A stretch of DNA of 40,871 nucleotides from Firmicutes bacterium HGW-Firmicutes-11. Lineage in GTDB: Bacteria > Bacillota > Clostridia > Peptostreptococcales > Anaerovoracaceae. The position numbers and the translations under genes are program-made. The stretch covers positions 1-40,871 of the forward strand of contig PHAE01000017.1 in the NCBI GenBank assembly GCA_002840285.1, in the 5' to 3' direction. Shown here in pieces: positions 1 to 15,496 of this stretch (position 1 is the stretch's first letter; each line of letters opens with the position of its first letter). Below the pieces are notes generated by a model. The model was not told the DNA's origin. It was given only the letters and a program-made list of their open reading frames with translations, and did not search any database.

Positions 1-35
1 ACGCTCGTGCATTTTCATGTTCGAATCTTTAAAAA

Positions 36-96
36 CGGGAGCGCCAATAAAATAGCGATAGACACATGGCCTATCGCTATTTTATTGGCACTCCCG
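36..96. terminator. Long inverted repeat, original terminator of the tRNA-Arg gene
   Basis: Two 26-nt arms (36-61 and 71-96) are reverse complements with one mismatch and enclose a 9-nt loop. Read on the minus strand, the structure directly follows the displaced tRNA 3' end at 86-130 and has an A/T-rich stem, so it fits the terminator the tRNA used before the element inserted. The outer part of each arm contains acceptor-stem-plus-CCA sequence, which is unusual for a terminator. Confidence 0.6.
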
Positions 97-130
97 AGAT
101 GATTCGAACATCCGACGCACGGTTTAGGAA
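86..130. repeat. attL, 45-bp direct repeat of the integrated element
   Basis: This 45-bp sequence is identical to 9049-9093. It corresponds to the tRNA-Arg segment from the anticodon loop through the T arm to the encoded CCA. The flanking bases differ on both sides, so the repeat ends are defined. It is the original 3' end of the tRNA gene, displaced by the element. Confidence 0.9.
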
Positions 131-247
131 TGCGTTTCTATAGATTTTACCCGTGTAAATACAAAAAGATAAATGTTAATATTCCAACGTTTGATGAATA
201 TTACTCTTGCTTTACAATATTATAAAAAGACAGTTATCAAAGATCAA

Positions 248-272
248 AAAGACCAAATAATGTCCAAATATT
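248..272 (+). other. Probable integrase arm-type sites, left end
   Basis: Two tandem 11-nt repeats start at 251 and 262 (GACCAAATAAT, then GTCCAAATATT). The 13-nt string AAAGACCAAATAA at 248-260 recurs at 8974-8986 near the right end in the same orientation, again followed by a second copy 11 nt later. Paired tandem sites inside both ends are typical of arm-type binding sites of lambda-family integrases. This assignment is inferred from position and repetition. Confidence 0.5.
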
Positions 273-308
273 GCGAGACATCATAAGTGATAACTAAAAG
301 TAGATTAG

Positions 309-334
309 GTTACATAGTATAAATAATATGTAAC
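309..334. repeat. Inverted repeat in the left leader region
   Basis: GTTACATA (309-316) and TATGTAAC (327-334) form an 8-bp inverted repeat around a 10-nt AT-rich spacer. It lies between the arm-type sites and the toxin promoter. It could be an operator for the downstream cassette or a host-factor site. Apart from this, the arm sites and the promoter, I see nothing else in 131-489. Confidence 0.35.
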
Positions 335-417
335 GCTATTGTATTTGTCACTCTAAAATATCTTTATGAACAACAAGTTGTAGTTAAAAAAATGGAAATC
401 ATACAGTATATAGCGAC

Positions 418-446
418 TTCACGGGCTTAGCAATACATGTTATACT
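418..446 (+). promoter_or_regulatory. Possible promoter of the toxin-antitoxin-chaperone cassette
   Basis: TTCACG (418-423) and TATACT (441-446) are separated by 17 nt and lie 44 nt before the first gene. The -10 matches well and the -35 only partly. Confidence 0.35.
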
Positions 447-489
447 GAAACAGCGTGTAGTTCTTTAGAATTTTAGATTAGAATAGAAG

Positions 490-1026
490 ATGATGGGAAA
501 CAATATAAAAGGGTATCATATACATAATTATGAAAAATGTGTTTGTTTTATGGAGTCTAACGAACTAACTGTTTCTAAAGACAAAGAATATCTAGGGTGC
601 GGAATGTACTTCTGGGATAATCATTCTAATGCAATGTTTTGGTTAGGGGAAAGAAGGCAACAAGAAGGAAATAGACACAGAAGACTTTGTTTGATTACAT
701 GTAACATAAACATAGATTATATGCTCGACTTGACCGATAATGAAATAGTAAAAGGTATCATTGAGGCTTGGCATGAATATGTTATTCGAACAGGGAGTGT
801 AGAGAAGGCTCCCCTTGGATACATATTAGATACGTTAGATACATTATGCTCGGTTAAGCCTTTTTCTGTCAGAAAAGGCTCGTTGCACTACAATGGTGCC
901 CAAAATCCTTTTGCTGATATAAAATGGGGTGCTAAAGGACATTACTTCACAGTATATAGTAGAATTATATATGCTGTAAAAGACTCAGAAGTGATACGAA
1001 ATAAAAGAATGGAGGAGGTATCATGA
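490..1026 (+). CDS. Putative ADP-ribosyltransferase-like toxin (CmdT-like)
   Basis: This 178-residue protein has no signal peptide or membrane segment, so it should act in the cytoplasm. Near the N-terminus it has GYH (residues 8-10), and at 35-42 LGCGMYFW followed by an alanine/tryptophan-containing helix. This pattern resembles predicted PARP/ART-fold proteins that begin with GYHGT and carry LGxGxYFW. The toxin role is inferred from gene order: it overlaps the next small gene by 4 nt (ATGA), and a SecB-like chaperone gene follows, which is the toxin-antitoxin-chaperone layout of CmdTAC, whose toxin is an mRNA ADP-ribosyltransferase. ATG codons at 490 and 493 are both possible starts, and no strong Shine-Dalgarno sequence is seen. 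Base composition is very AT-rich. Enzyme class is uncertain because the match is by motif memory only. Confidence 0.55.
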   Translation: MMGNNIKGYHIHNYEKCVCFMESNELTVSKDKEYLGCGMYFWDNHSNAMFWLGERRQQEGNRHRRLCLITCNINIDYMLDLTDNEIVKGIIEAWHEYVIRTGSVEKAPLGYILDTLDTLCSVKPFSVRKGSLHYNGAQNPFADIKWGAKGHYFTVYSRIIYAVKDSEVIRNKRMEEVS

Positions 1027-1322
1027 CTACTAATAAAGAATATGCTCTCGGAATTATTGCCGAGTATAAGGAACAAATTGCGAAATTGAGTTGCGAGCAT
1101 CTACTTGAAAAACAGAAGGCTCAGGGGATTGTTTTAGAGGACTATTGCGATATGGGTATACATAACGCTTTTTTGAATTTATATTCAGATTTTTTGGTAT
1201 TAGAACAAGACATATCGTCTATGAATTATTATGCTGGTAACGTAGAAAGTAGTTTGTTTAATTATGTTGATAGAGAGGCCAGCCTTCCATCAAAGGTTTA
1301 CTCCTTTGTAAATGCTGCTTAG
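1023..1322 (+). CDS. Small cytoplasmic protein, presumed antitoxin (CmdA-like)
   Basis: This 99-residue, mostly helical protein resembles no family I recognise. It overlaps the preceding toxin-like gene by ATGA, preceded by a good ribosome binding site (GGAGG at 1012-1016). It ends 9 nt before the GTG start of the SecB-like gene, in the same frame with only a TAG between them. In tripartite toxin-antitoxin-chaperone systems the middle gene is the antitoxin and its C-terminal tail often binds the chaperone. The tail here (about residues 80-99, with exposed hydrophobics such as VYSFV) would be the candidate chaperone-dependence segment. The antitoxin role rests on gene order and size only. Confidence 0.5.
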   Translation: MTTNKEYALGIIAEYKEQIAKLSCEHLLEKQKAQGIVLEDYCDMGIHNAFLNLYSDFLVLEQDISSMNYYAGNVESSLFNYVDREASLPSKVYSFVNAA

Positions 1323-1331
1323 GTAATTATT

Positions 1332-1736
1332 GTGAAAAACAGTTGTTTTAATGTAGAAAAAGTAAGAGTTTCAGAACTTTGTTTTAAGGTTAATGATGAA
1401 TTTGGACCAAATGAAGTTAAACTTGACATTAACCAGAAAACGGGATATGCCATAATTGAAAATGAAAATCGAGCAAAACTCAAAATGGAAATAGAGTTGT
1501 TCAAGACCGATAGAGGCATTGCTCCATTTGATTTAAAGGTAGTTATGGAAGGATTCTTTAATTGGGAAGAAGACATAGATAAAGATAAATTAGAACACTT
1601 TCTGTTAATAAATGGAGCTGCAGTCTTACTTTCATATGCCAGGCCAATAATAACCCAAATAACAACTTTCGCAGGATTTCCACCATTAATTTTACCACTA
1701 ATGAATTTTGTAGATAGCGAAGAAGACTGTGAATAA
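1332..1736 (+). CDS. SecB-like chaperone of a toxin-antitoxin-chaperone cassette (CmdC-like)
   Basis: This 134-residue protein resembles SecB, the export chaperone. An N-terminal strand region carries EVKLDI, a middle part carries VVMEGFF, and the C-terminal part carries LLSYARPIITQIT followed by GFPPLILPLMNF, the most conserved SecB segment (FPYAR...FP.L.L.P.NF in E. coli). Typical SecB is about 150 residues, so length fits. Most Clostridia lack a housekeeping SecB, and SecB-like genes in Gram-positives are usually tied to toxin-antitoxin loci, as the two upstream genes suggest here. The start is GTG with only a weak AGG upstream, so translation is probably coupled to the preceding gene. Confidence 0.7.
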   Translation: MKNSCFNVEKVRVSELCFKVNDEFGPNEVKLDINQKTGYAIIENENRAKLKMEIELFKTDRGIAPFDLKVVMEGFFNWEEDIDKDKLEHFLLINGAAVLLSYARPIITQITTFAGFPPLILPLMNFVDSEEDCE

Positions 1737-1778
1737 GTCATTTGTACGTCCAATAAAGTAAATAAATATATATATATA

Positions 1779-1806
1779 CCGCTCATTTATTGAGCGGCTT
1801 TTTTAA
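1779..1806 (+). terminator. Rho-independent terminator after the chaperone gene
   Basis: CCGCTC, a 7-nt loop and GAGCGG are followed by CTTTTTT. The hairpin overlaps the last codons of the convergent integrase gene, so it separates the two transcripts. Confidence 0.8.
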
Positions 1807-3186
1807 GTTTACCTTCTTGCTATAAGGATTCAATATATCTTCCAACACCTCTGCGGCCGCTGCATCAGCTGACTTAATAGCATGAGCATAGATATTGCCT
1901 GTAGTGGAGGCCTGAGCATGTCCAAGGCGATTGGAAACAGTCTTTAAGGGAATACCGGCTGCAATCTGCAGGGTGGCGTTTGTATGTCTCAGAGAATGGA
2001 GTGATATATCCGGAAGGCCCTTTCTGATCACGAAATGATAGAACCAAGCAGATATAGTATCCGGATGAATAGGTTCACCGTTCCACTTTGTGAACAAACG
2101 CTTTGATTGGATCCATTGATCCCCCAACTCTAAACGCCTCTCATTTTGCCAAGCTCTATATGATCTCAGCATTTCCATTGTAGCAGAGGGGACTTTGATA
2201 GATCTGTTAGAGCTGGAGTTTTTTGTTTCGTCCTCAAAAACGCCTCTATCGGGAAGGTATAGAGAAGTTCTCCTAATATGCAGCAAGTTATTATCAAAAT
2301 CGATATCGGGCCATTCCAGGCCGCACAATTCTCCCCGCCTCATACCAGTATTAAGAAGCAGCGGCACAATCACTCTGTATTGTACCGGTTCATCAATAAG
2401 CGCGGACAAGAGCAAAGCTGCTCCATGTTCATCCAGGTACCGTGCTTCCTTTCGTTCTACCCTGGGTGGTTTCACTCTTTCGCATGGATTGGAGAATATC
2501 ACTTGCCATTGAACAGCGGTTGAAAGTATTGAAGATATTAATCTGTGATAGTGAAGAATAGTTTGAGCTGAAAGCTGTTTTGTTGCAGCTGATACCTCAA
2601 ACAGCGTTTTAATATCCTTTTCTAGAGCATTGGCCAGCCGTTGGGCGCTAGAAAATGAGATGTTTTTTCCTTCATAGATAGAATTAATTACAGACTTAGA
2701 AACAATGGCCATCTCGGCGATTTTGTCTTTAGTAAGCCCCTTTTCTTTTAACAGAACTTTTAGGTCAACTATGCACCTGTATTTAACGTCGTCGCGAATT
2801 CCATTTTCAGATAAGTTGTCATAAAAGGATATTAGGTGATGCGGCTGCAAATGGTCAAGGCGTATATGACCAATAGCCGGAAGGATCCTTTTCATTAAGC
2901 CCTGGTACCTTGAAATGGTTTTGGCCCGCAGCTGTTTGTCGGCATAATCTTTAAACCACTTATCAGAGAAATCTGCAAACCGAACAGATCCATCTAAGAA
3001 TAATCCGGCCCGGCACTTTTCCTCAAACAGCACTGTTTGTCTTTGGAGTTCCTTCTTGATCTGTTTTTCAGTCATGCAAGGATCTGGCTTCCAGGTAGTG
3101 GAGCGCATGAGTTGCTTGCCGGTCATGTCATAGCCACATGAAACACGGATCCGGTATGAAGTTCCACGCTTTGTTACTGTAGCCAT
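1783..3186 (-). CDS. int: Tyrosine site-specific integrase with inserted HTH domain
   Basis: The enzyme would insert and excise the element at tRNA-Arg. It has 467 residues, longer than the usual 380-400. Order of parts: an N-terminal arm-binding region (1-65), a core-binding SAM-like segment (70-135), an inserted XRE-type helix-turn-helix (about 145-197), the rest of the core-binding helix, and the catalytic domain (245-455). Catalytic residues visible are R283 in GMRRGE, H397 and R400 in HSLRH, H423 in LGHA, and nucleophile Y433 in NIYAH. AGGAG lies 11 nt before the ATG. The closely related integrases I know from Clostridia carry the same inserted HTH, so it is a family trait and no local fusion. 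The gene is convergent with the toxin cassette and faces attL. Confidence 0.93.
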   Translation of the reverse strand: MATVTKRGTSYRIRVSCGYDMTGKQLMRSTTWKPDPCMTEKQIKKELQRQTVLFEEKCRAGLFLDGSVRFADFSDKWFKDYADKQLRAKTISRYQGLMKRILPAIGHIRLDHLQPHHLISFYDNLSENGIRDDVKYRCIVDLKVLLKEKGLTKDKIAEMAIVSKSVINSIYEGKNISFSSAQRLANALEKDIKTLFEVSAATKQLSAQTILHYHRLISSILSTAVQWQVIFSNPCERVKPPRVERKEARYLDEHGAALLLSALIDEPVQYRVIVPLLLNTGMRRGELCGLEWPDIDFDNNLLHIRRTSLYLPDRGVFEDETKNSSSNRSIKVPSATMEMLRSYRAWQNERRLELGDQWIQSKRLFTKWNGEPIHPDTISAWFYHFVIRKGLPDISLHSLRHTNATLQIAAGIPLKTVSNRLGHAQASTTGNIYAHAIKSADAAAAEVLEDILNPYSKKVNLKKPLNK

Positions 3187-3241
3187 TGTTGTATAGACTC
3201 CTTTCTAAAAATCAAAGTCTATTAAGTGACATATTTAAGAC

Positions 3242-3790
3242 TTATAAGAAATCCATTGAAAACTCTATATTACAGTCATCCATTATTCTCTCGCTGTCTT
3301 CAATTTTTTCAAATATGTCCTCAATTATTTGCGTTTCGATATCAAAAAGAAACAAAGGAGGCAGCATCTTGAGCACCCTTTTTATATCTGCATTCTTCTG
3401 TATTTCTTCTTTTTCCGTTGCATCATAAAGGCCAATGTCAACTTGAATATCGTCTACATGCCCTAAATTACTTCTTGTGTAAACATTGCCAAAAAGATTT
3501 AATTTACGGTCTTTACCTTTTTCACGGACGGTTAACTCTATTTCAACTGTATTATCTCTTAAGTTGGCCTGAGTTTTAACTCTAATATCGATCGGGATAT
3601 AAACAAAAAACTGATCAGGGGTAATATTAAAATACATACATAAAGTATTGAGAGTATCTAATTGTATCCCTTGACTGTAGTTGTTAGACAGTGAAGTAAG
3701 AGTTGTTCTAGAAATTCCTGTGTCATTAGCAACCTTTGTTATTTTCAAATTGCGCTCTGCCAAAAGAACCGATAAATTACACTTAATCAT
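3242..3790 (-). CDS. XRE-family repressor (cI-like) of the element
   Basis: An N-terminal helix-turn-helix (residues 1-60, with ISRTTLTSLSN) is followed by a roughly 120-residue acidic domain that I do not recognise. It is expected to repress the divergent early operon and keep the element integrated. I chose the ATG at 3790 (182 residues) because AAGGAGGG lies just upstream; an in-frame ATG at 3820 would add ten residues and overlap an operator-like TTGTACAA. It faces the Cro-like gene across a 158-bp region with several TGTACA sites. No LexA-like protease dyad is obvious, so induction may depend on a helper-phage protein instead of RecA. Confidence 0.8.
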   Translation of the reverse strand: MIKCNLSVLLAERNLKITKVANDTGISRTTLTSLSNNYSQGIQLDTLNTLCMYFNITPDQFFVYIPIDIRVKTQANLRDNTVEIELTVREKGKDRKLNLFGNVYTRSNLGHVDDIQVDIGLYDATEKEEIQKNADIKRVLKMLPPLFLFDIETQIIEDIFEKIEDSERIMDDCNIEFSMDFL

Positions 3791-3812
3791 TTTGTATCCC
3801 TCCTTGTTCAAA

Positions 3813-3917
3813 TTGTACAATAAGAATAAAAAAAGTACAATACACTGTACATAATATTATTGACAATAGCGAATTGTAATGTATAATAAAAATATAAAAC
3901 GTTCAACATGCTGTACA
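3813..3917. promoter_or_regulatory. Operator cluster with TGTACA-type sites
   Basis: Several GTAC-centred sites lie between the divergent regulators: the palindrome TTGTACAA (3813-3820), two GTAC half-sites 8 nt apart (3835-3850), and TGTACA (3912-3917). They bracket the Cro-side promoter and cover the repressor-side start region, as expected for a lysogeny switch read by the two XRE proteins. Confidence 0.65.
3860..3887 (+). promoter_or_regulatory. Strong promoter of the element's early operon
   Basis: A perfect TTGACA (3860-3865) and a perfect TATAAT (3882-3887) are 16 nt apart. The promoter points at the Cro-like gene and lies within the operator cluster. Confidence 0.85.
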
Positions 3918-3948
3918 TATATTAAGTAAAGGGAAGGAAGTGTAGCGC

Positions 3949-4158
3949 ATGATAGTCAATAAGTTTTCTTCTTTGTTAGGAGACAGATTGATAAGAGTTA
4001 GCGAAGTATCTAAAGAAACTGGGATATCAAGGACAACAATAACAAACCTCTACTATCGCAAAAATGATTCTATATCTCTAAAAAACCTTGACAAATTATG
4101 TTCTTATCTCAGCTGCTCAGTTGGTGATTTATTAGAATATAGAAAAGAGGAGCAATAA
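3949..4158 (+). CDS. Small XRE-family DNA-binding protein (Cro-like)
   Basis: This 69-residue protein is a single helix-turn-helix domain, with the recognition region GISRTTITNLYYRK and the common C-terminal motif LDKLCSYLSCSVGDLLEY. It is the first gene of the rightward early operon, preceded by GGAAGGAAG and a consensus promoter. By position it is the Cro counterpart of the divergent repressor and probably binds the same TGTACA sites. Its HTH resembles that of the repressor (GISRTT in both). It ends one base before the next gene, so the two are co-translated. Confidence 0.8.
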   Translation: MIVNKFSSLLGDRLIRVSEVSKETGISRTTITNLYYRKNDSISLKNLDKLCSYLSCSVGDLLEYRKEEQ

Positions 4159-4159
4159 T

Positions 4160-4465
4160 ATGGATGAGCAAAGAAAGTTATCCCTGACTGCAGCGGAGAG
4201 AGAGACAATAGTTTTGTTTAATGACAGCTCAAATGAATGCATTGTCTACACATGTTCGAGACCTGTGATGACTAAACTGGACAAGCTTTGTAAATCAAAT
4301 CCTAAAACGTGGAGGCTTAAAGAAAAGGATAAGGAAAGTAAGACTTATCTTACTGAGAAGAACCTTATAAGTTTCAGGGCCGACAAAGTAAAAATGGAGT
4401 TGACTGATGAGCAGAGAAAGAAAATGTCCGATAGAGCAAAAAAGACCATAGCAATGCAAACATAG
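4160..4465 (+). CDS. Small conserved phage-type protein of unknown function
   Basis: This protein has 101 residues, no signal and no membrane segment. The segment LTAAERETIVLFNDSSNE, a central KLDKLC and a basic C-terminus resemble a family of short hypothetical proteins common in clostridial prophages and conjugative elements, always near early genes. I know of no assigned function. It follows the Cro-like gene by one base and has GAGGAG upstream, so it belongs to the early operon. Confidence 0.7.
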   Translation: MDEQRKLSLTAAERETIVLFNDSSNECIVYTCSRPVMTKLDKLCKSNPKTWRLKEKDKESKTYLTEKNLISFRADKVKMELTDEQRKKMSDRAKKTIAMQT

Positions 4466-4570
4466 GATTCTCTAAATCATTTGATTTACAAGAATAAAGT
4501 CGTAAATCACAAGATAACTATACTTTTAGGTATAAAGTATCCACCTCGAAAAAACAGGAGTAAAAAAACA

Positions 4571-4834
4571 ATGCTAAGAATGAGAAAGATCCAAGATGCT
4601 TATGAAGAGATAAAGGCGGTGGACCCGAACACCGCTATCACAAGAAACTATATCAGGAGACTAATAATCAGCGGCACTGTGCCGTCGATAATGGCCGGAC
4701 GAAAACATTTAGTTAACATGGATGCTCTTGAAGCGTATTTGTCTAACCCAAAACCAATCAACAATCCGATAGAATTTGGAAGGATTAGACCGGTAAAAGA
4801 ACATGGGGTAAACCAATGGCGCAAAGAAGAATGA
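4571..4834 (+). CDS. Excisionase-like helix-turn-helix protein
   Basis: This is an 87-residue MerR/excisionase-type DNA-binding protein. Near the middle it has TRNYIRRLIISGTVPSIMAG followed by KHLVNMDALEAYL, the usual layout of excisionase HTH domains in which the wing is followed by a helix ending in YL. I start it at the ATG at 4571, which has AGGAG upstream; the frame is open further back to 4481 but that part looks non-coding. It probably directs the integrase toward excision and may also act as a regulator. Its end overlaps the replication gene by 19 nt. Confidence 0.65.
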   Translation: MLRMRKIQDAYEEIKAVDPNTAITRNYIRRLIISGTVPSIMAGRKHLVNMDALEAYLSNPKPINNPIEFGRIRPVKEHGVNQWRKEE

Positions 4835-5694
4835 TTTCAGTAAAGGTCATAGATACGGATGACTTCATAGAAATGCCAGCGACTACAAGGCTCTTATACT
4901 ATGAACTCAATATAAGAGCTGATGATGACGGTTTTGTTGGATCGCCGAAAAAAATTCAAAACATGGTTGGCTGCTCAGAAGAAGATTACAAGATACTGCT
5001 CAGCAAAAAGTACGTAATTCCTTTCGAAAGCGGTATTTGTGCCATTCGTCATTGGAAGATTCACAATTATATTCGTACGGATAGATATAACGAAACGATC
5101 TACCAGCTTGAAAAATCAACACTTACTGAACAATTGGGAATCTATGACATACCACATGACATACCAACGGTGTCCGATAAGGTAGGCAAGTGGGATACTC
5201 AGGTTAGGTTAGGTAAGGATAGTATAGGTAAGAGTAAGGATAGTATAGAGAAAGGGAAGGAGAGGGAAGGAAAGAGAGGCGCCTACGGCGCCCTTAAGGG
5301 AAAAAGCGAAAATAAAGAACTAACTGCAAACAGGATACGCGACAACTATAATCAGGTCATTATGTTACATGACAAGAGCTATCCTTTTCAGATGAATGAA
5401 GTTGAAAGAATCTTTAATGAATTTTTCATAGCTTACAAAAAATACAGAGGCAATGATCACCCAACTATTAGCAACCTGCAGTGTATTGATTTCATTAGGA
5501 AATTTCCTGAGTGTCCAGATAAAAATGGAGACAAAGTGAAACTGATTGTCTCGATTTATAAACCAATAATTGAACTATATTTCCAAGCAAAATTCTCGGA
5601 GGATTGCGATTATAACATGAGCCATTTCATGAGCGGAAGTGTTAGAACTCTGCGCTATAGAGAAGCGTTAAGGCTAAAAGGAGAAAATGAATGA
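4816..5694 (+). CDS. Phage-type replication initiator / replisome organiser
   Basis: This 292-residue protein begins with a winged-helix-like domain (residues 1-95, MISVKVIDTDDF ... TRLLYYELNIRADDDGFV ... IRHWKIHNYI) typical of phage and island replisome organisers. A low-complexity Lys/Ser/Gly linker follows (about 130-165), then a helical C-terminal domain (175-290) with an uncertain match to helicase-loader-binding domains. It should bind the element's origin and recruit the host helicase after excision. The linker is encoded by a purine-rich repetitive stretch that may be the origin itself. It starts inside the end of the excisionase-like gene and overlaps the next gene by ATGA. Such a gene suits both satellites and small prophages. 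Confidence 0.75.
   Translation: MAQRRMISVKVIDTDDFIEMPATTRLLYYELNIRADDDGFVGSPKKIQNMVGCSEEDYKILLSKKYVIPFESGICAIRHWKIHNYIRTDRYNETIYQLEKSTLTEQLGIYDIPHDIPTVSDKVGKWDTQVRLGKDSIGKSKDSIEKGKEREGKRGAYGALKGKSENKELTANRIRDNYNQVIMLHDKSYPFQMNEVERIFNEFFIAYKKYRGNDHPTISNLQCIDFIRKFPECPDKNGDKVKLIVSIYKPIIELYFQAKFSEDCDYNMSHFMSGSVRTLRYREALRLKGENE
5196..5280 (+). repeat. Purine-rich direct repeats inside the replication gene, possible origin
   Basis: The 14-nt string TAAGGATAGTATAG occurs at 5214-5227 and again at 5235-5248, 21 nt apart, within a run of AGGTTAGGT and GGAAGG-like repeats. Origins of phages and islands often lie inside the initiator gene in such iterated stretches. The repeats also encode the flexible linker, so drift in a low-complexity region is an alternative. 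Confidence 0.4.
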
Positions 5695-5927
5695 TAAATA
5701 TAACAACATTCAAGGGTTACATTAGTGATGGAGAACCGAAATTGCGGCAAAGCTTAGATTTTAAAGTCAATCATTTTTTGGCGAAGAATGATATTAAGCC
5801 AATAGATATAAAATTTTGCTCCTTAAGAGATTCAAATCATTGTTTTAAGCAAACGATCTGGGAAGACACTATTGCAGTTGCAATGATTGTCTATGAAGTA
5901 CAAGACAATAGAGAATCGGAGGGTTAG
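5691..5927 (+). CDS. Small hypothetical protein of the early operon
   Basis: This 78-residue soluble protein is unknown to me. It overlaps the replication gene by ATGA and has AAAGGAG upstream, so it is translated as part of the early operon. No motif, signal peptide or membrane segment is visible. The AT-rich composition matches the surrounding early genes. Confidence 0.6.
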   Translation: MINITTFKGYISDGEPKLRQSLDFKVNHFLAKNDIKPIDIKFCSLRDSNHCFKQTIWEDTIAVAMIVYEVQDNRESEG

Positions 5928-5930
5928 GAT

Positions 5931-6158
5931 ATGGATCAGATTATTACAGATAATCAATTAGAATTCATGATTGCCAAATTTCTTAATGAAAATTCCATAG
6001 GTAGGTTTATTGAGGACAAAGAGAATGTACTCGCTGATGCCCGGGAATCATATGGAGAATGTTTTGTAGAGATTGTTAAGCTGTTTTGGGATACATTGCT
6101 TGATGTTAAATATACGGTGACACTTAAAAAACAATCGCAAGCAAATGGAAGCGCTTGA
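5931..6158 (+). CDS. Small hypothetical protein of the early operon
   Basis: This 75-residue, acidic, helical protein is unknown to me. It starts 3 nt after the preceding gene with GGAGGG (5919-5924) before its ATG. It is the last AT-rich gene before the composition changes toward the capsid block, and ends in a short basic tail. No known motif is visible. Confidence 0.6.
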   Translation: MDQIITDNQLEFMIAKFLNENSIGRFIEDKENVLADARESYGECFVEIVKLFWDTLLDVKYTVTLKKQSQANGSA

Positions 6159-6313: not shown

Positions 6314-7600
6314 ATGACAAAAGAAGAGATCCGCGCCAGGATGCGGGAGGTTCGCGAGGAAAAAGCAACGTTTATAAAAAAAGCCGACGCTTCGGACGAT
6401 GTGTCCGAGATCCGCGCGATCAACGCAAAGCTGGACGGGCTAAACGACGAATACGGCAAGCTCGAGGAACAGCTGTATGACTTCCTCGAGGCTGGAATCG
6501 AGCAGAGATCTGGTTCTCCGATTGGACAAATCCAGATTCTCGGGACATATGGCATGGCTACAGCCAAAAATCAAAAAATAAAAAACGAAAGAGCAGGTGA
6601 AAACCACATGAATATGACCCCTGAAGTACGAGCAAAATTTGAGCAGCTTGGCTCAGAACTGAAAGAGCGAAAAGCTGCATCCTTTGAAATCGACGAAATG
6701 GAGCTCCGAGCGGTAACCGTCGCAAGCGGAGATCTGGTCGTTCCTACTCACACAAGCAACACCCTGGCGCCAGCGTTCAACGAGGTATCGGCTTTGATCG
6801 ATGCCGTGAAAGCGGTTCCTCTCCCAGGCGGCGAAGCGTATGAAAAAGGTTTTGTAGTCTCTTATGGTGAAGGCGATTACACCGACGAAACTTCCGATTA
6901 CACCGCAGCCGAGCCCACCTTTGACTATGTCCAGATCGGCAAGGCCAAAATCACAGCCTACGCTGAAATGACAGACGAAGCAGCAAAGCTGCCGAACGTT
7001 CAGTACGCAATCGAAGTTAAGAAGGCCATCATGCAGGCGATCCGCAAAAAGATCTCCCGGCAGATCGTCGCCGGTGCAGGCGGGCCTAACGCACTGACCG
7101 GAATTTTCAACGCCCCAGAAAACGTGATCCCGGCCGCCTCTGATATTGAGATCTCAAAGATCGACGTCGACACCTTGGATAATCTCGTCTTGGCCTACGG
7201 CGGCGATGAGGAGATCGAAGGCGACGCCTTCCTGATCTTGAGCAAGGCAGACCTGGCCGCTTTCGCAGCTATCCGAGACGCCGAGGGAAACAAGATCTAC
7301 AAGATCAAGAAAACCTCCGGCGCAACCGGAATCATAAGCTCTGACGGCACATTCGAAACACCTTATGTTTTGAACTCGGCCTGCCCGGCGCTCACCGCTA
7401 CGGAAACCGATGCGGGTACACTTTGTATGGCCTACGGAAAGCTCGCGGCCTACGAGATGCCTTTGTTCTCGCAGCTGACCGTCGAGGAATCCAGAGACTT
7501 CAAATTCAAGTCTGGCCACATCGCCTTTCGCGGATCCGTATGGACCGGCGGCAACGTCGCCATGTACCGGGGCTTTGTCCGGATCAAGAAAAAGGCGTAA
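6314..7600 (+). CDS. HK97-family major capsid protein
   Basis: This 428-residue protein forms the phage shell. Residues 1-110 are charged and helical, like the scaffolding delta domain removed by the prohead protease. The body starts around residue 130 (AVTVASGDLVVPTHTSN) and has the usual features: FDYVQIGKAKITAYAEMTDEA, an E-loop-like region, AGAGGPNALTGIFNA, and the C-terminal LPLFS-like AYEMPLFSQLTVEESRDFKF and WTGGNVAMYRGFVRI. AGGAGGTG precedes the ATG at 6314. An internal ATG at 6609 also has AGGTGA 8 nt upstream, so a second start without the delta domain is possible. It lies before the protease, the reverse of the common portal-protease-capsid order. Codon use is much more GC-rich than in the early genes. 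Confidence 0.9.
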   Translation: MTKEEIRARMREVREEKATFIKKADASDDVSEIRAINAKLDGLNDEYGKLEEQLYDFLEAGIEQRSGSPIGQIQILGTYGMATAKNQKIKNERAGENHMNMTPEVRAKFEQLGSELKERKAASFEIDEMELRAVTVASGDLVVPTHTSNTLAPAFNEVSALIDAVKAVPLPGGEAYEKGFVVSYGEGDYTDETSDYTAAEPTFDYVQIGKAKITAYAEMTDEAAKLPNVQYAIEVKKAIMQAIRKKISRQIVAGAGGPNALTGIFNAPENVIPAASDIEISKIDVDTLDNLVLAYGGDEEIEGDAFLILSKADLAAFAAIRDAEGNKIYKIKKTSGATGIISSDGTFETPYVLNSACPALTATETDAGTLCMAYGKLAAYEMPLFSQLTVEESRDFKFKSGHIAFRGSVWTGGNVAMYRGFVRIKKKA

Positions 7601-7603
7601 GTC

Positions 7604-8161
7604 ATGACGACCTTGGAGAATAAACGCGAGATCCGCATGGCGGAGCTTCGTGCCGTTCCGGAAGAAGGGAAGATGATCGTCGAGGGGTATGCCGTCGTGT
7701 TCGATACGCCGGCGACCCATTACGGATTCACCGAGATCATCGATCGGGGCGCCTTCATCGGTACCGACATGAAAGATGTGCCGATGCGGTACAACCACAA
7801 TGACAGCTGGCTGATTTTAGCCCGGAGCCGGAACGGAAGCCTGCAGATGATTGTGGACGAAAAAGGTCTCTTCATCCGGGCAGAGCTGATCGACACGCAG
7901 ACTAACCGGGACGTCTACAAGAGCATCCAAGCGGGGCTACTCGACAAAATGAGCTTCGCGTTCACAGTATCTAAAGCCGAGTGGAACTACGATACAGACA
8001 CCCGACGGGTGCTTCAGATCGAAAAATTATTTGACGTAAGCGTGGTGGATACCCCGTTCTACGATACAACCTCAATCTTTGCGCGGGCCGCCCTGGACGA
8101 GCTGGAGAGCGGCAAAAGGGCGCTGGAAATTGAGAAGTTGAAAGTTAAAGCCAAATCCTGA
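7604..8161 (+). CDS. HK97-family prohead protease
   Basis: This 185-residue serine protease cleaves the capsid delta domain during shell maturation. The family pattern is visible: EGYAVVFDTPA near the N-terminus, VPMRYNHND with the catalytic histidine, LDKMSFAFTV with the catalytic serine, and FDVSVVDTPFYDTTSIFAR near the C-terminus. It starts 3 nt after the capsid stop, so the two are co-translated. Phages usually place this gene before the capsid. No portal or terminase gene lies on either side, which suggests that the element supplies its own shell but depends on another phage for packaging and tails. Confidence 0.88.
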   Translation: MTTLENKREIRMAELRAVPEEGKMIVEGYAVVFDTPATHYGFTEIIDRGAFIGTDMKDVPMRYNHNDSWLILARSRNGSLQMIVDEKGLFIRAELIDTQTNRDVYKSIQAGLLDKMSFAFTVSKAEWNYDTDTRRVLQIEKLFDVSVVDTPFYDTTSIFARAALDELESGKRALEIEKLKVKAKS

Positions 8162-9048: not shown

Positions 9049-9093
9049 TGGCACTCCCGAGATGATTCGAACATCCGACGCACGGTTTAGGAA
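9049..9093. repeat. attR, 45-bp direct repeat of the integrated element
   Basis: Identical to 86-130. This copy is now the functional 3' part of the tRNA-Arg gene. Confidence 0.9.
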
Positions 9094-9124
9094 ACCGACG
9101 CTCTATCCCCTGAGCTACGGGAGC
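9049..9124 (-). tRNA. tRNA-Arg(CCT)
   Basis: On the minus strand a full cloverleaf can be drawn: acceptor GCTCCCG with CGGGAGT (one G-T pair), D stem GCTC/GAGC, anticodon loop TTCCTAA with anticodon CCT (arginine, AGG codons), T loop TTCGAAT, discriminator G and an encoded CCA. The outermost anticodon-stem pair is T-T. It serves as the attachment site of the element on its 3' side. Confidence 0.92.
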
Positions 9125-10539: not shown

Positions 10540-11028
10540 ATGGATCCAAGCTTTTTCATGAAGGAAGCCCTGCAGGAAGCCCAAAAGGCCTATGCCTTAG
10601 GCGAAGTCCCGGTGGGAGCGGTGATCGAATCCAACGGAGCGATCATCGGTCGAGGTCACAATCGGACCGAAACCGACAAAGATCCGGTCAGCCATGCAGA
10701 GATCATAGCGATCCGCGAAGCGGCAAAGGTCCTTGGGGGCTGGAGGCTTTCCGGGTGCAGATTGTACGTCACGACCGAACCTTGTTCCATGTGCGCCGGC
10801 GCCATCGTCCTCGCCAGAATCGAAAAGCTGTTCATCGGCACCATGGATCCCAAAGCCGGAGCGTGCGGCTCTCTCGCAAACATCCCACAAGATCAACGGC
10901 TCAACCATTACGTAGAAATAGAGACCGGTATTCTGGAAGAAGAATGCAAACAAATAATGAAAGAATTCTTCCGCGAGCTGCGTCAACGCAATAAGACGAA
11001 GCGGCGGAACGACCAGGAGGATCGTTAA
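10540..11028 (+). CDS. tadA: tRNA-specific adenosine deaminase TadA
   Basis: TadA converts adenosine 34 of tRNA-Arg(ACG) to inosine, needed to read CGN codons. This 162-residue protein has the zinc-binding cytidine/deoxycytidylate deaminase core: HAE (H52, proton-shuttling E54) and PCSMC (C82, C85). PVGAVI near the N-terminus and the C-terminal helix are typical. A lysine/arginine-rich tail of about 15 residues extends past the usual end. AAGGAA precedes the ATG, and the next gene starts 2 nt after its stop, so they are co-transcribed. Confidence 0.93.
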   Translation: MDPSFFMKEALQEAQKAYALGEVPVGAVIESNGAIIGRGHNRTETDKDPVSHAEIIAIREAAKVLGGWRLSGCRLYVTTEPCSMCAGAIVLARIEKLFIGTMDPKAGACGSLANIPQDQRLNHYVEIETGILEEECKQIMKEFFRELRQRNKTKRRNDQEDR

Positions 11029-11030
11029 GT

Positions 11031-11897
11031 ATGAAAAGAATAGGCGCCATAGTCAGCCTTTTAGTGATGCTCATGATTTTATCCACATCGATGAGCTTCG
11101 CGTCCGGACTGACCCTGATCAGCAGCTTCCCGGAAGACGGAGAAAGCGGCCTGATGCCGGCCAACATCGCGATAAAGCTTGTGTTTTCCGAAAACATGAC
11201 CAGCGAGGCGGCGCAGACGGCCAACGAAAACCGCTTTGCGATCACTGACGCGGAAGGGAAAGCGATCAAGTTCGATCCTCTCTATAATGCAGAAAAATAT
11301 CCCAACGAAATATGGATACAGATCACGGAAACACTGACCGACGATACCGAATATAATGTAGAGATCTCTGCAGACCTGGAGAGCAGCGCAGGAAACACCC
11401 TGGATGAGCCGGTCAGCATCAGCTTTTCCACCAGAGACACAGCCGCGGACAGCAACGGCTACATGATTCTAATGGTCCTCATGGTCATAGGCATGGTGGT
11501 ATTCACTGCATGGGACACCAGACGGCAATTAAAGAAACAAGGAGCGGCAAAAGAAGACGATAAGATCAACCCCTATAAAGAAGCGAAAAAGACCGGGAAA
11601 TCGGTGGAAGAAATCATAGCAAAAGCCGAGAAGGAAAAAGAAAAGGCCACTAAAAAAACTAAAAAAGACGACAAAGGTAACGATATTCCTGATACGGACT
11701 CGCAAGATGCCGTTCGTGAAGGAGTGCATAAGGTCAAAGCCAGAAAGGCCATTTCCGCGGTCGGCGTCTCCACACCGCAAACGGTATTGAGACGGATCCA
11801 AAGGCGGGAAGAAGCAAAGAAAGCGGAAGAAGTCAAAAGGGAAGAGATCCGGAGCAGAAGCAAGGGCAGCAAACAACAGCAAAGAAAAAAGAAATAG
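11031..11897 (+). CDS. Exported membrane-anchored protein with Ig-like (Big_5) domain
   Basis: This 288-residue protein has a signal peptide (1-25, cleavage near SFA-SG). An Ig-like domain of the Big_5 type (about 28-135) follows, with PEDGESGLMPANIAIKLVFS and DTEYNVEIS. A transmembrane helix spans about 143-161, and the long C-terminal tail (163-288) is dominated by Lys and Glu. The Ig domain would lie outside and the charged tail in the cytoplasm. The tail is low-complexity with coiled-coil-like runs; its role is unknown. The gene lies 2 nt after tadA and 15 nt before the GntR regulator, so expression is probably shared. Confidence 0.75.
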   Translation: MKRIGAIVSLLVMLMILSTSMSFASGLTLISSFPEDGESGLMPANIAIKLVFSENMTSEAAQTANENRFAITDAEGKAIKFDPLYNAEKYPNEIWIQITETLTDDTEYNVEISADLESSAGNTLDEPVSISFSTRDTAADSNGYMILMVLMVIGMVVFTAWDTRRQLKKQGAAKEDDKINPYKEAKKTGKSVEEIIAKAEKEKEKATKKTKKDDKGNDIPDTDSQDAVREGVHKVKARKAISAVGVSTPQTVLRRIQRREEAKKAEEVKREEIRSRSKGSKQQQRKKK

Positions 11898-11912: not shown

Positions 11913-12572
11913 ATGAACAGCGAAACATTTCCCCATTCCATTTCACTTGCGGAGGAGATCGAAACCATCCTTCGGGAGAGGATCCTCCATGGAGAATACG
12001 GGATCGGGGAGAGGATCAAGGAAAGCCAGGTAGCCGAAGAACTGGCGGTCAGCAGAACGCCGATCCGTGAAGCACTGCGGCAGCTGGAACAAAAAGGCCT
12101 TGTCCAGTCGATCCCAAACCGCGGGTCCTTTGCTCTGGGTTTTACCCGGCAGGACATCGGCGACATCTACACGGTGCGGGCGGCAGTGGAAGCCATTGCT
12201 GTCGGCTGGGCAGCCGAGCGGATCAGCGCAAAAGAGCTCACAGAGTTGGAAGACGTCTTCGAGAAGATGGAGTTCTTCACCGAACGACTGGACAGCAAAC
12301 GAGTCTCCGAACTCAACAAGGATTTTCATAAAATCATTTACAACGCCACCGGCAGTCGATTCCTTGCCCAGATCCTGAGATCTTATCAGGATTATGTGGA
12401 ACAGACCAGAAAAGCCACCGTTTATTGCAAAGAAAACCTGATGGCGATCCTTTCGGAGCACGGGGACATTCTCGAGGCATTGCGGAAAAAAGACAAGGAC
12501 CTGGCGGTGGAACGAATCGCCGTACACCTTGAAAATTCAAGAAAACGAGCGGAATTGAGCTTAAAGCTCTAA
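11913..12572 (+). CDS. GntR-family regulator, FadR/FCD subfamily
   Basis: This 219-residue transcription factor has an N-terminal winged helix (residues 10-75, with the signature AVSRTPIREALRQLEQ) and a helical FCD ligand-binding domain (85-215). Its metal/ligand-type histidines are visible in DFHKIIYNA and near the C-terminus (AVHLENS). FCD regulators usually sense organic acids. It lies just upstream of a 2-oxoacid oxidoreductase operon, with a perfect ATTGTATACAAT palindrome between them, so it probably controls that operon in response to its substrate or product. GntR would then be made from the upstream operon while its target starts a new transcript. Confidence 0.88.
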   Translation: MNSETFPHSISLAEEIETILRERILHGEYGIGERIKESQVAEELAVSRTPIREALRQLEQKGLVQSIPNRGSFALGFTRQDIGDIYTVRAAVEAIAVGWAAERISAKELTELEDVFEKMEFFTERLDSKRVSELNKDFHKIIYNATGSRFLAQILRSYQDYVEQTRKATVYCKENLMAILSEHGDILEALRKKDKDLAVERIAVHLENSRKRAELSLKL

Positions 12573-12584
12573 ATTGTATACAAT
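12573..12584. promoter_or_regulatory. Probable GntR/FCD operator
   Basis: ATTGTATACAAT is a perfect 12-bp palindrome right after the regulator's stop codon. The core TTGTATACAA is the common operator form of FCD-type GntR proteins. It lies upstream of the oxidoreductase operon. Confidence 0.7.
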
Positions 12585-12610
12585 AAACATTTAACAATCA
12601 TTTATACATG

Positions 12611-12684
12611 GCTATCCCCTGCACATGCGTTGTCTTCCCAAAAGGAAGATGGTAGCATGAAGGAAGAAATTGCAAGGGGGTAGC
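12611..12684 (+). promoter_or_regulatory. Nested hairpin leader over the ribosome binding site of the oxidoreductase operon
   Basis: Four stems can be nested: 611-619 with 676-684 of this kilobase (GCTATCCCC with GGGGGTAGC, one G-T pair), TGCA 620-623 with 671-674, CATGC 624-628 with GCATG 655-659, and TCTTCC 633-638 with GGAAGA 644-649. A second GGAAGA at 662-667 offers an alternative partner. The outer stem hides the GGGGG ribosome binding site. An 8-codon leader ORF (12657-12683) lies inside. This suggests translational control; no known riboswitch class is recognised. Confidence 0.5.
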
Positions 12685-12692
12685 TATTTATT

Positions 12693-13910
12693 ATGGAACC
12701 ACAACAGCGGGAGCCTCTTCCCAAGAGCGGACGAAAGACCATTCTGCAGGGGAACGAGGCTTGTGCGAGAGCAGCAGTGTATGCGGGATGCCGGTTTTTT
12801 GCCGGATACCCGATCACTCCTTCTACGGAAATCATCGAAGTCATGTCGTCGGAAATGGTCAACGCCGGCGGAACCTTCATACAGATGGAGGACGAAATCG
12901 CATCAGCCTGTGCAATCGTCGGGGCGAGATGGGGCGGCAAGAGATCCATGACAGCCACCTCCGGCCCCGGTTTTACGTTGATGCAGGAAACCATCGGTTT
13001 CGCAGCGGTCACCGAAACGCCGGTCGTGATCGTGAACGTCCAGCGCGGCGGCCCATCCACAGGACAGCCCACCATGTCATCTCAACAGGACATCTATCAA
13101 GTCAGATACGGAAGCCATGGTGACTATGAAATGATCGCTCTGGCGCCTTCCTCGGTTCAGGAAATGTACGATTTCACGATCCGTGCTTTTGAGCTGTCGG
13201 AAAAATTCCGGACGCCGGTTGTCCTTTTGGCAGACGAGATCGTTGGCCATATGAGAGAAAAAGTGATCGTATATGATGGTGAACGACAGATCCGCGGCGG
13301 ACACCGAAACTACGTCGTGTCGCCACAGGACGATTTTTTCACCGGGAGCAACTCCCTGGTCGAGGGACAGTTCCATGACGATATGGGGCGACGCATCGGC
13401 CATCTGGCAGACAAAAGCGGCAGCTTTTTAGCTTCGCTGGAAAGCAAGATCCAAAACCACATCGACGAGATCAGCGACGTTGACACCTTCTTCATGGAAG
13501 ACGCGGACATTGCCATACTCGCTTACGGTTCCGTTGCCCGGCCTGCACTACAGGCCGTTCGTTCCGCAAAGGGGATACGGGAGGAAGCGGGCGCCAAGGG
13601 ACGATTCGTTGGCAATCTCCGAAAGGTTCTGCCTTGGAAAAAACCGGATGTGAATCCTTACAGTCATTTGAACGTGGGCATGATCAAGGTCAATTCGGTC
13701 TGGCCTTTCCCGGACAAAGAAATCCAGCGACTGGCGAAGAACTGCAAGTATGTCTTTGTGCCGGAGATGAATGTGGGAAAATACGTCAGGGAAGTCGATC
13801 GGTGTCTGAAGCACAGCAAGGTCATCTCCCTCCGAAAACTGGGTGGAGACCTGCATACACCGACAGAGATCCTGGCGGCGATCGCGAAGGAGGTGGAACA
13901 GCATGAATAG
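12693..13910 (+). CDS. 2-oxoacid:ferredoxin oxidoreductase, alpha subunit
   Basis: This 405-residue subunit belongs to a TPP enzyme that oxidatively decarboxylates a 2-oxoacid to acyl-CoA and reduces ferredoxin, reversibly. Conserved parts include FFAGYPITPSTEIIE (about 34-48), EDEIASACAIVGA, TSGPGFTLMQE and NVQRGGPSTGQPT, typical of the alpha subunit of 2-oxoglutarate (Kor) and 2-oxoisovalerate (Vor) oxidoreductases. Sequence alone does not separate those two substrates; pyruvate is less likely because the subunits are separate genes. It opens a four-gene operon (alpha, beta, ferredoxin-type, gamma) with 4- to 8-nt overlaps, behind a GntR operator and a structured leader. The start has GGGGG 12 nt upstream. 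Confidence 0.9.
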   Translation: MEPQQREPLPKSGRKTILQGNEACARAAVYAGCRFFAGYPITPSTEIIEVMSSEMVNAGGTFIQMEDEIASACAIVGARWGGKRSMTATSGPGFTLMQETIGFAAVTETPVVIVNVQRGGPSTGQPTMSSQQDIYQVRYGSHGDYEMIALAPSSVQEMYDFTIRAFELSEKFRTPVVLLADEIVGHMREKVIVYDGERQIRGGHRNYVVSPQDDFFTGSNSLVEGQFHDDMGRRIGHLADKSGSFLASLESKIQNHIDEISDVDTFFMEDADIAILAYGSVARPALQAVRSAKGIREEAGAKGRFVGNLRKVLPWKKPDVNPYSHLNVGMIKVNSVWPFPDKEIQRLAKNCKYVFVPEMNVGKYVREVDRCLKHSKVISLRKLGGDLHTPTEILAAIAKEVEQHE

Positions 13911-14748
13911 ACTCATGGAACGATATCTGAGGCTGGATGCTCTTCCTACCCTCTTTTGCCCCGGCTGCGGAAACGGCATCGTACAACAGGCCTTTGTGAC
14001 CGCAGTTGACAAACTGGGGATCCGGGATGACATCGCCTGCGTCAGCGGGATCGGCTGCTCCTCCTGGGTGCCGTGCTATCTTGACCTTGATGTGATGCAC
14101 ACCACCCACGGACGAGCCCTCGCCTTTGCCCAAGGACTAAAACTGGCCCGGCCGGACAAAAAGATTGCGGTCTTCACCGGTGACGGCGATTGCCTCGCGA
14201 TCGGCGGGAACCACTTTCTCCACGCCTGCAAACGAAACATCGATCTGGCGGTGATCATGATCAACAACCATATCTACGGAATGACCGGAGGACAGAAATC
14301 CCCGGCAACGCCCCAGGGGGCGGCGACCAAGACATCGCCGTGGGGCGCATACGACGAGCCGATCGAAGGAGCAGATCTGGCGATCTGCATGGGAGCAACC
14401 TACGTTGCCCGTTGGACCACCGCACATCCGGTCCAGCTGGAAAAAAGCATCGAAGCGGCGATCAAGCACAAGGGGTTTTCCTTCATAGAAGTCATTGCAC
14501 AGTGCCCGACCCAAAGCGGGAAGAGCGTCTACGGCGACAAGGATCCGGCGTTCATCATGAAAAAGCTGAAAGAAAACAGCGTGATCTACAAAGAAGGGGA
14601 CCACGTCCCCGCCGGAAAGATCAAATGCGGTGTACTCCATCACGACAACGACAAAACAGAATACATCGAGCGGATGGAAACCCAACTTCGACTCTACGCA
14701 GAAAGCAAAGCGCCCAAAACGTCGGGAGAAGGAGAGCAGGCGAAATGA
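13903..14748 (+). CDS. 2-oxoacid:ferredoxin oxidoreductase, beta subunit (TPP-binding)
   Basis: This 281-residue subunit holds thiamine diphosphate and an iron-sulfur cluster. CPGCGNG (19-25) provides cluster cysteines. GDGDCLAIGGNH starting at residue 93 and the NN pair at 121-122 form the Mg-TPP motif. The ATG at 13903 overlaps the end of the alpha gene by 8 nt and begins MNRLMERYLR; an in-frame ATG at 13843 lies within the alpha gene and is not needed. The C-terminal QCPTQSGKSVYGDKDPAF region is typical. It overlaps the ferredoxin-type gene by ATGA. Confidence 0.92.
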   Translation: MNRLMERYLRLDALPTLFCPGCGNGIVQQAFVTAVDKLGIRDDIACVSGIGCSSWVPCYLDLDVMHTTHGRALAFAQGLKLARPDKKIAVFTGDGDCLAIGGNHFLHACKRNIDLAVIMINNHIYGMTGGQKSPATPQGAATKTSPWGAYDEPIEGADLAICMGATYVARWTTAHPVQLEKSIEAAIKHKGFSFIEVIAQCPTQSGKSVYGDKDPAFIMKKLKENSVIYKEGDHVPAGKIKCGVLHHDNDKTEYIERMETQLRLYAESKAPKTSGEGEQAK

Positions 14749-14951
14749 AAGTAAACGTCGACATCGCCCATTGCAAGGGCTGCGGGATCTGCATCGCCTT
14801 CTGTCCCAAGCAAGTCTTTACCTATTCGAAAAAGAGAAACACCTATGGAACCGCAACGCCGGAGCCATCAAAAGAAGAAGAGTGCATTGGCTGCCGGCTC
14901 TGTGAAAAGCTCTGTCCCGATGCAGCGATCCAAGTGGAGGAAACAAAATGA
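14745..14951 (+). CDS. 2-oxoacid:ferredoxin oxidoreductase, ferredoxin-type delta subunit
   Basis: This 68-residue protein has two 4Fe-4S motifs, CKGCGICIAFCP and CIGCRLCEKLCP, eight cysteines in the classical CX2CX2CX3C pattern. It passes electrons from the catalytic subunits to ferredoxin. It overlaps the beta gene and the gamma gene by ATGA on each side. In many clostridial operons this gene comes first (delta-alpha-beta-gamma); here it sits third. Confidence 0.93.
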   Translation: MKVNVDIAHCKGCGICIAFCPKQVFTYSKKRNTYGTATPEPSKEEECIGCRLCEKLCPDAAIQVEETK

Positions 14952-15496
14952 GATTGAATGTCAGATTCGCCGGCGCCGGCGGACAGGGAGTGATCCTTTC
15001 CTCCGTGCTGCTCGCCAAAGCCTACGGCCTGGGAGAAGACATGAACATTTCCCAGACCCAGAGTTACGGCCCGGAAGCCAGAGGCGGCGCCTGCAAAGCG
15101 GAAGTCGTCATCTCCGACGAGTACATCGACTATATGAAGGTTGACGACGTGGATGTCTTCATCGCTTACAACCAGACCGGCTACGACAAGTACTGCTCGG
15201 ACCTGGAAACCAAAGACATGGTGTTGATCAACAGCACCCTGGTGACCACCAACAACCCGGATCATTACCATATCCCGGGAACCAAAATCGCCGAGGAAAT
15301 GGGAAAGCCCCAGGTAGTCAACATGGTCATGCTGGGGGCATTGACCAAGCTTCTCCCGAGGCTTCATTACGATAAGGTGATGGATGCGATCTGGGAAGAC
15401 TTCCCGGCGTCCCTTGCGGTTTCCAACATGGAGGCCTTCGACAAAGGGTATCGCTTCATGGAAGAGCAGCTGTTGCAGAAACAGAGCGCCTCCTAG
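14948..15496 (+). CDS. 2-oxoacid:ferredoxin oxidoreductase, gamma subunit
   Basis: This 182-residue subunit of the CoA-binding domain family has the N-terminal RFAGAGGQGVILSSVLLAKA and the following SYGPEARGGACKAEVVIS, both family hallmarks. It completes the alpha-beta-delta-gamma set. It overlaps the preceding gene by ATGA. A 7-bp hairpin after the stop separates it from the convergent radical SAM gene. Confidence 0.92.
   Translation: MRLNVRFAGAGGQGVILSSVLLAKAYGLGEDMNISQTQSYGPEARGGACKAEVVISDEYIDYMKVDDVDVFIAYNQTGYDKYCSDLETKDMVLINSTLVTTNNPDHYHIPGTKIAEEMGKPQVVNMVMLGALTKLLPRLHYDKVMDAIWEDFPASLAVSNMEAFDKGYRFMEEQLLQKQSAS

Follow-up and report, generated by a model that had tools for sequence, protein, structure and literature searches.

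Why should a metabolic operon appear to carry its promoter between the arms of a long hairpin, one arm of which holds the ribosome-binding site of its first gene? The question is raised by korABG, a 2-oxoacid:ferredoxin oxidoreductase operon of Firmicutes bacterium HGW-Firmicutes-11, found in a 40,871-nt stretch of DNA, hereafter the window (contig PHAE01000017.1). The operon lies 3′ of tadA, a gene for a Big_5 domain protein and gntR, all on the same strand (Table 1), and the gap between gntR and korA is 120 bases; a gntR transcript would continue into the hairpin. This neighbourhood recurs in relatives: gene-order comparison placed Big_5 homologues at the equivalent position, a gntR homologue precedes korA in L118, L119, L121, L122, L008, L009 and L018, and the tadA-Big_5 pair is also 5′ of korA in L118, L119, L120, L008 and L018.

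Table 1. Genes and control elements around the korA start, in window coordinates
Feature	Position	Strand	Basis and remarks
tadA, tRNA adenosine deaminase	10540..11028	+	NCBIfam NF008113 above cut-off; in upstream co-directional run
Big_5 domain protein	11031..11897	+	Pfam PF13205; ends 15 nt 5′ of gntR
gntR, FCD-type GntR regulator	11913..12572	+	Pfam GntR and FCD
O1, ATTGTATACAAT palindrome, probable GntR operator	12573..12584	.	Perfect inverted repeat
CATTTATACATG, operator-like imperfect palindrome	12599..12610	.	Also a -10-like candidate (P1) upstream of the hairpin; putative function
Long hairpin	12608..12687	+	Nested stems 12608-12620/12675-12687 (outer), 12621-12623/12671-12673, 12624-12628/12655-12659 and 12630-12638/12644-12652; loop 12639-12643
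P2 -35 box, TTGTCT	12630..12635	+	Same pattern in 26 other leaders
P2 extended -10 box, TGG-TAGCAT	12650..12658	+	17-nt spacer
8-codon ORF, MKEEIARG	12657..12683	+	Starts upstream of predicted transcription start
Shine-Dalgarno, AAGGGGG	12674..12680	+	From sequence; 3′ arm of outer stem
T-rich spacer to start codon	12687..12692	+	Counted by eye
korA, 2-oxoacid:acceptor oxidoreductase alpha subunit	12693..13910	+	Pfam POR_N and PFOR_II; NF006412 above cut-off
korB, beta subunit, start uncertain	13843..14748	+	Pfam TPP_enzyme_C; PorB_KorB family below cut-off
korG, gamma subunit	14948..15496	+	Pfam POR

A hairpin over the korA ribosome-binding site

Positions 12605-12692 have a minimum free energy of -39.1 kcal/mol; their shuffles average -20.5, and none of 200 falls so low (z -5.66). 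A wider piece, 12573-12720, gives a z-score of -3.47, a level reached by 1 of 200 shuffles. Among 29 picked ORF starts in the window, that of korA has the most extreme fold (z -5.81; runner-up -2.21). A sliding scan of both strands, in 88-base pieces with a step of 44, returned z-scores of -4 or lower in 10 of 1854 pieces and of -5 or lower in four, three of which fall within the window's first 132 bases; its grid split the korA-leader hairpin, which is absent from the top 15 pieces. The four nested stems and 5-nt loop described in an initial annotation of this DNA were recovered, although the true span is slightly longer than the 12611-12684 given there. Its proposal that the outer stem sequesters the G-run of the ribosome site also held in the predicted fold: in RNA reading through from upstream, the probability of being unpaired is 0 at 12676-12681.

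The initial annotation had further proposed that TCTTCC (12633-12638) could pair with either of two GGAAGA copies (12644-12649 or 12662-12667), giving mutually exclusive folds. The motifs exist, but the folds are far from balanced: that using 12662-12667 reaches -31.3 rather than -39.1 kcal/mol, 7.8 worse, and the pair 12635-12647, central to the alternative with 12644-12649, has a probability of 0.999. Among five aligned rows both copies occur only in the window, the second being absent from the four aligned relatives. With energies this one-sided and the second copy absent in aligned relatives, a switching leader was rejected. The 8-codon ORF proposed as a leader is likewise present and ends in the outer stem, but it is not conserved; at the position of its ATG, L011 has a 4-codon ORF, L010 a 2-codon ORF, L003 ATT, and L008, L018 and L092 ATA, while a nearby ATG in L093 reads open into korA. 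Control by a leader peptide was discarded because the short ORF is not conserved and its ATG overlaps the -10 box.

No known riboswitch had been recognised at this locus, and none emerged: a scan of the window against Rfam 15 at gathering thresholds matched only a tRNA (9052-9124, minus strand), and a scan of 12500-12800 with E up to 1 gave no match, and a riboswitch or other known RNA at the hairpin was rejected on these scans.

A promoter between the arms

The clearest conserved pattern in the aligned leaders (the eight closest distinct ones) is TTG...16-18...TGN-TANNAT, and extends as far as the -10 box. It has the make-up of a sigma-70 promoter, a -35 and an extended -10 box 16-18 nt apart, and is present as TTGNNN-16/18-TGN-TANNAT in 27 of 35 related leaders, where shuffles give an expectation of 0.09. 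The 35 loci comprise 30 KorA matches with stored DNA (of 41) together with L011, L018, L024, L025 and L026; one leader, L094, is represented by only 136 bases. The pattern is absent from L093, L098, L102, L107, L110, L114, L025 and L026, of which L098, L107 and L114 sit closely 3′ of another reading frame (judged by eye) and L110 has the operator without the full promoter pattern. In the window this promoter, P2, agrees with the consensus hexamers at 8 of 12 bases, and so is unlisted in a promoter scan with a threshold of 9, whose sole match on the plus strand, TTGAGC-18-TACAAT at 12555-12584 (9 of 12), is at chance level (0.4 expected). The case for P2 is therefore made by the conservation of its pattern, not by the general promoter scan.

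From the usual distance between the -10 box and +1, transcription is expected to start at about 12664-12666, within the hairpin. As the conserved P2 lies inside the hairpin, a transcript from it would have no 5′ arm; the operon's own mRNA should thus lack that arm, and the hairpin should be able to form only in RNA begun upstream. The initial annotation had taken the structure for the operon's leader RNA; the position of P2 within the hairpin, in a pattern shared by 27 of the 35 leaders, speaks against this reading. In RNA begun at 12665, the predicted unpaired probabilities at 12675-12678 are 1.0, 0.92, 0.70 and 0.49, and those at 12679-12681 only 0.05, 0.13 and 0.17, in a weak fold; of the seven positions examined in the Shine-Dalgarno region, three are thus still mostly paired in the RNA from P2.

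The presence of a GntR-type operator upstream of the hairpin, which had also been claimed, was supported. O1 would probably be bound by the neighbouring GntR protein, and in 23 of the 27 promoter-bearing leaders the core of a GTATAC-type operator begins 55-66 nt 5′ of the first base of the -35 box, at distances of 55 (2), 57 (2), 63 (2), 64 (1), 65 (13) and 66 nt (3), the window having 55. These distances fall into two clusters, 55-57 and 63-66, which differ by approximately one helical turn. A second operator overlaps the spacer ahead of the -10 box in 15 of the 27, and the distance clusters and second operator together suggest looping by the GntR regulator. TTGTATACAA has one further occurrence in the genome, within a TRAP transporter gene, which was set aside as a chance copy of the operator; the reversed pattern is found at three places in the genome, so rarity by itself is uninformative. 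Between O1 and P2, CATTTATACATG is identical in the window, L003, L010, L008 and L018, and differs by one base in L011.

Conservation of the hairpin and of its pairing

Of 349 family genomes, 40 have a KorA match at E 1e-130 or better; among 393 genomes sampled from the order, only 4 have one at E 1e-183, and these were already known. The fold test covered eight close leaders, L009 and L089 being omitted as near copies of L008, and half of them carry a comparable hairpin. In the homologous stretch these four have z-scores of -5.42 (window), -3.85 (L011), -4.49 (L003) and -5.38 (L093), with 0 or 1 of 500 shuffles as low, and their 3′ arms differ. The other four lack such a hairpin (L010, -0.69; L008, +0.32; L018, -0.52; L092, -0.70). 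The notion that the promoter alone is conserved and the fold is not was dropped once these scores had been computed. In the KorA tree no single branch sets the four hairpin leaders apart from the rest; two changes are required, and 8 of the 13 inner branches are weak. L093 has kept the hairpin and lost the -10 box, operator and gntR at its kor locus; with the -10 box lost, its nested promoter is incomplete.

A covariation check in homologous kor leaders had been suggested as one test of the structure. The hairpin was found in half of the close leaders, as above, but covariation did not rise above that of shuffles: 89.6% of outer-stem cells are paired, and 268 of 500 shuffles reach as high a value. 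Sliding the outer-stem partners lowers pairing to 41-67%. RNAalifold found a kept two-sided change in 0 of 16 pairs. When arms were swapped between leaders, the window paired best with its own 3′ half, and L011, L003 and L093 each had some foreign half that did equally well or better. Shuffling the remainder of the 3′ arm, with the 5′ part and the Shine-Dalgarno sequence fixed, gave p-values of 0.009 (window), 0.13 (L011), 0.07 (L003) and 0.05 (L093), compared with 0.58 in the non-folding L010. These are weak tests for selection on pairing, and that such selection has acted is something we infer. The hairpin is best described as a real but unproven element.

These results leave chance pairing as a rival, since covariation is at shuffle level and swapped arms often pair equally well. 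A pyrimidine-rich block 5′ of the -35 box, TGGCTATCCCCTG, may be conserved for reasons of DNA and happen to match the purine-rich Shine-Dalgarno region, the strong inner stem of the window being a private accident and the whole without function. Besides the covariation result and the foreign arms that pair as well as the native one in three of the four hairpin leaders, this would account for L010, L008, L018 and L092, which share the promoter and lack the hairpin (z -0.70 to +0.32). It sits poorly with the finding that each of the four hairpin leaders, although their 3′ arms differ, folds much better than its shuffles, and with the extreme position of the window among the 29 ORF starts. We consider it possible, though doubtful.

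A possible barrier to read-through

At a probability of roughly 0.5, the explanation we favour is that the hairpin is a read-through insulator that works like the leader of T4 gene e, with the korABG promoter nested in the inverted repeat. It draws on computed results: the hairpin prediction, the existence and conservation of the promoter pattern, an operator-like site and the order of the genes. The operon would be driven by the sigma-70-type P2, probably under GntR control. RNA from P2, begun at about 12665, would contain the 3′ arm only, could not form the hairpin and would be translated, whereas RNA reading through from tadA-Big_5-gntR would contain both arms, fold, and bury the Shine-Dalgarno sequence. 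In addition, the hairpin and the U-rich stretch that follows it, strong in three relatives and weak in the window, may terminate transcription just 5′ of the start codon. The hairpin would in this way prevent expression of the operon by read-through from a run of housekeeping genes.

The surroundings of the hairpin were compared with this in mind. All four hairpin leaders lie 3′ of tadA-Big_5, with gntR intervening in the window, L011 (G093) and L003 (G007) and not in L093 (G106). In the L120 stretch of G106 (3242-3383), the gntR gene found between the Big_5 gene and korA in other genomes is missing; the operator and the -10 box are absent too. In L011, L003 and L093, 7 of the 8 bases 3′ of GGTAG are T, a terminator-like U-tract (judged by eye); in the window the tract after GGTAG is weak, with 5 T in 8 bases, and in L010 there are 4 after GGCAG. 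A consensus terminator scan of the window, restricted to short loops, listed none at the hairpin. Ordinary terminators were found in none of the four hairpin leaders, in the 330 bases 5′ of korA that were scanned, as against 11 of 31 other leaders, numbers too small to prove replacement. In L089, a near copy of L008 that has the neighbourhood of L008 and L018 and no such hairpin, the stretch from gntR to P2 contains an ordinary terminator. A terminator also precedes P2 in L097, L104, L099, L106, L103, L109, L112 and L116; its presence in these eight other family leaders means that a shield ahead of the kor promoter recurs. The tadA-Big_5-gntR order is also that of L008 and L018, which lack the hairpin; in L018 no terminator satisfied the criteria of the scan either. 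The pattern of hairpin and U-tract thus fits the stopping or silencing of read-through, with the nested promoter escaping, on evidence that is correlative and from small numbers.

Two further observations concern these leaders. In the distant kor leaders L103, L109, L112 and L116, the T-tract of the terminator ends a few bases 5′ of the -35 box. In L121 (the L010 locus), a long inverted repeat with approximately 20 bp per arm and no clear U-tract lies at about 2890-2995, between gntR and the operator region and promoter of kor.

More tentatively, the stretch could be a composite element, a single piece of DNA acting as promoter, terminator and ribosome site that insulates a chromosomal metabolic operon. 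The promoter would lie between the arms, the Shine-Dalgarno sequence would be the 3′ arm, and the U-tract would be the spacer to the start codon, such that incoming polymerases would end there or yield untranslatable RNA, and those starting internally would be immune.

Against the read-through insulator stands the idea of a true regulated 5′ leader, an attenuator or translational switch, in which RNA starts 5′ of the hairpin, from a -10-like site TTTATACAT (12602-12610), from the scan site at 12555-12584 or from another, and a factor opens the hairpin. The scan site would indeed start RNA 5′ of the hairpin, but it is at chance level and has no -35 counterpart in L011 or L003 (by eye); TTTATACAT has no -35 box on inspection, and a start there would cut into the 5′ arm. 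The identity of CATTTATACATG in the window and four relatives agrees with such a leader, yet three of those relatives, L010, L008 and L018, have no such hairpin. Retention of the hairpin in L093 without the P2 -10 box, and the attenuator-like hairpin and U-tract of L011, L003 and L093, also speak for it. The gap between operator and hairpin is too small for an aptamer, the alternative fold is much the poorer, and there is no Rfam match; overall, a regulated leader seems unlikely. That the inverted repeat is instead the DNA binding site of another regulator around P2, the RNA fold being a by-product, is less credible again; in its favour, much of the conserved sequence is promoter DNA 5′ of the predicted start, and against it, the 3′ arm lies on the Shine-Dalgarno sequence and varies in length and sequence among relatives.

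Parallels in known systems

In the leader of the T4 lysozyme gene e, a hairpin hides the ribosome site in the longer, early transcripts, and the same review also names soc, 49 and I-TevI as genes with inhibitory structures at the start (PMC3014915). The kor leader resembles gene e in having a hairpin that, by fold prediction, masks the ribosome site of long RNA, and a promoter whose transcripts would lack the 5′ arm, the pattern of which is present in three of the four hairpin leaders and not in L093. The two differ in that phage late promoters serve T4, whereas kor has a sigma-70-type chromosomal promoter preceded by a GntR-type operator, and its hairpin may also act as a terminator. The likeness is one of logic, and homology is not suggested.

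In IS10 and IS50, fold-back of an inverted repeat hides the ribosome site of the transposase only in transcripts entering from outside. The proposed masking at kor would be of the same kind, confined to outside transcripts, but there is no transposase at the kor locus and the kor leader is single-copy in its genome. Intrinsic terminators and attenuators offer a third parallel, a strong stem followed by a U-tract being present in L011, L003 and L093; in contrast to these, the 3′ arm at kor doubles as the Shine-Dalgarno sequence and the tract as the spacer, a promoter lies between the arms, and the U-tract of the window is weak.

In the open-licence literature, no chromosomal operon with a promoter inside a terminator or hairpin appeared among the matches listed, and those listed for kor operons and GntR held nothing relevant. 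Two of the papers deal with cases different from a promoter in a hairpin (PMC8708921, PMC8450116). If the read-through insulator is real, it would mean that a device described for phage T4 also serves an operon of a bacterial chromosome, and would show how a regulated promoter can be shielded from read-through without a separate terminator. It would also advise caution, in that a striking leader hairpin may overlie a promoter and form no part of the mRNA made from it.

Distribution of the leader and genomic surroundings

Within its own genome (1.93 Mb, 75 contigs) the kor leader has a single copy, and a repeat or mobile element was dismissed on that ground. A model built from the four hairpin leaders (R1), run with strict filters on 349 family genomes, gave a match at E 0.01 in 5 of them, each directly 5′ of korA; four are the training rows and the fifth, the L010 leader in G170 (E 0.0035), has a fold no more stable than those of its shuffles (z -0.69). 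A dispersed RNA family was accordingly rejected, as R1 found nothing beyond kor leaders in the 349 family genomes. Comparison of the leader DNA with 148 family genomes gave seven matches, of which those in G000, G093 and G007 are kor leaders, and those in G034, G049, G056 and G118 are weak, short and unlike a kor leader. No viral relatives of the leader were found.

Elsewhere in the window, integrase, phage capsid and prohead protease genes occupy 1-93 (minus strand), 1786-3186 (minus strand) and 6314-8161 (plus strand). The GC content is 34-42% across positions 1-6000, and a hairpin with a 28-bp stem (z -11) is located at the window end. Together with the tRNA detected by Rfam, these genes, the GC content and the end hairpin suggest an integrated phage-like element or what remains of one.
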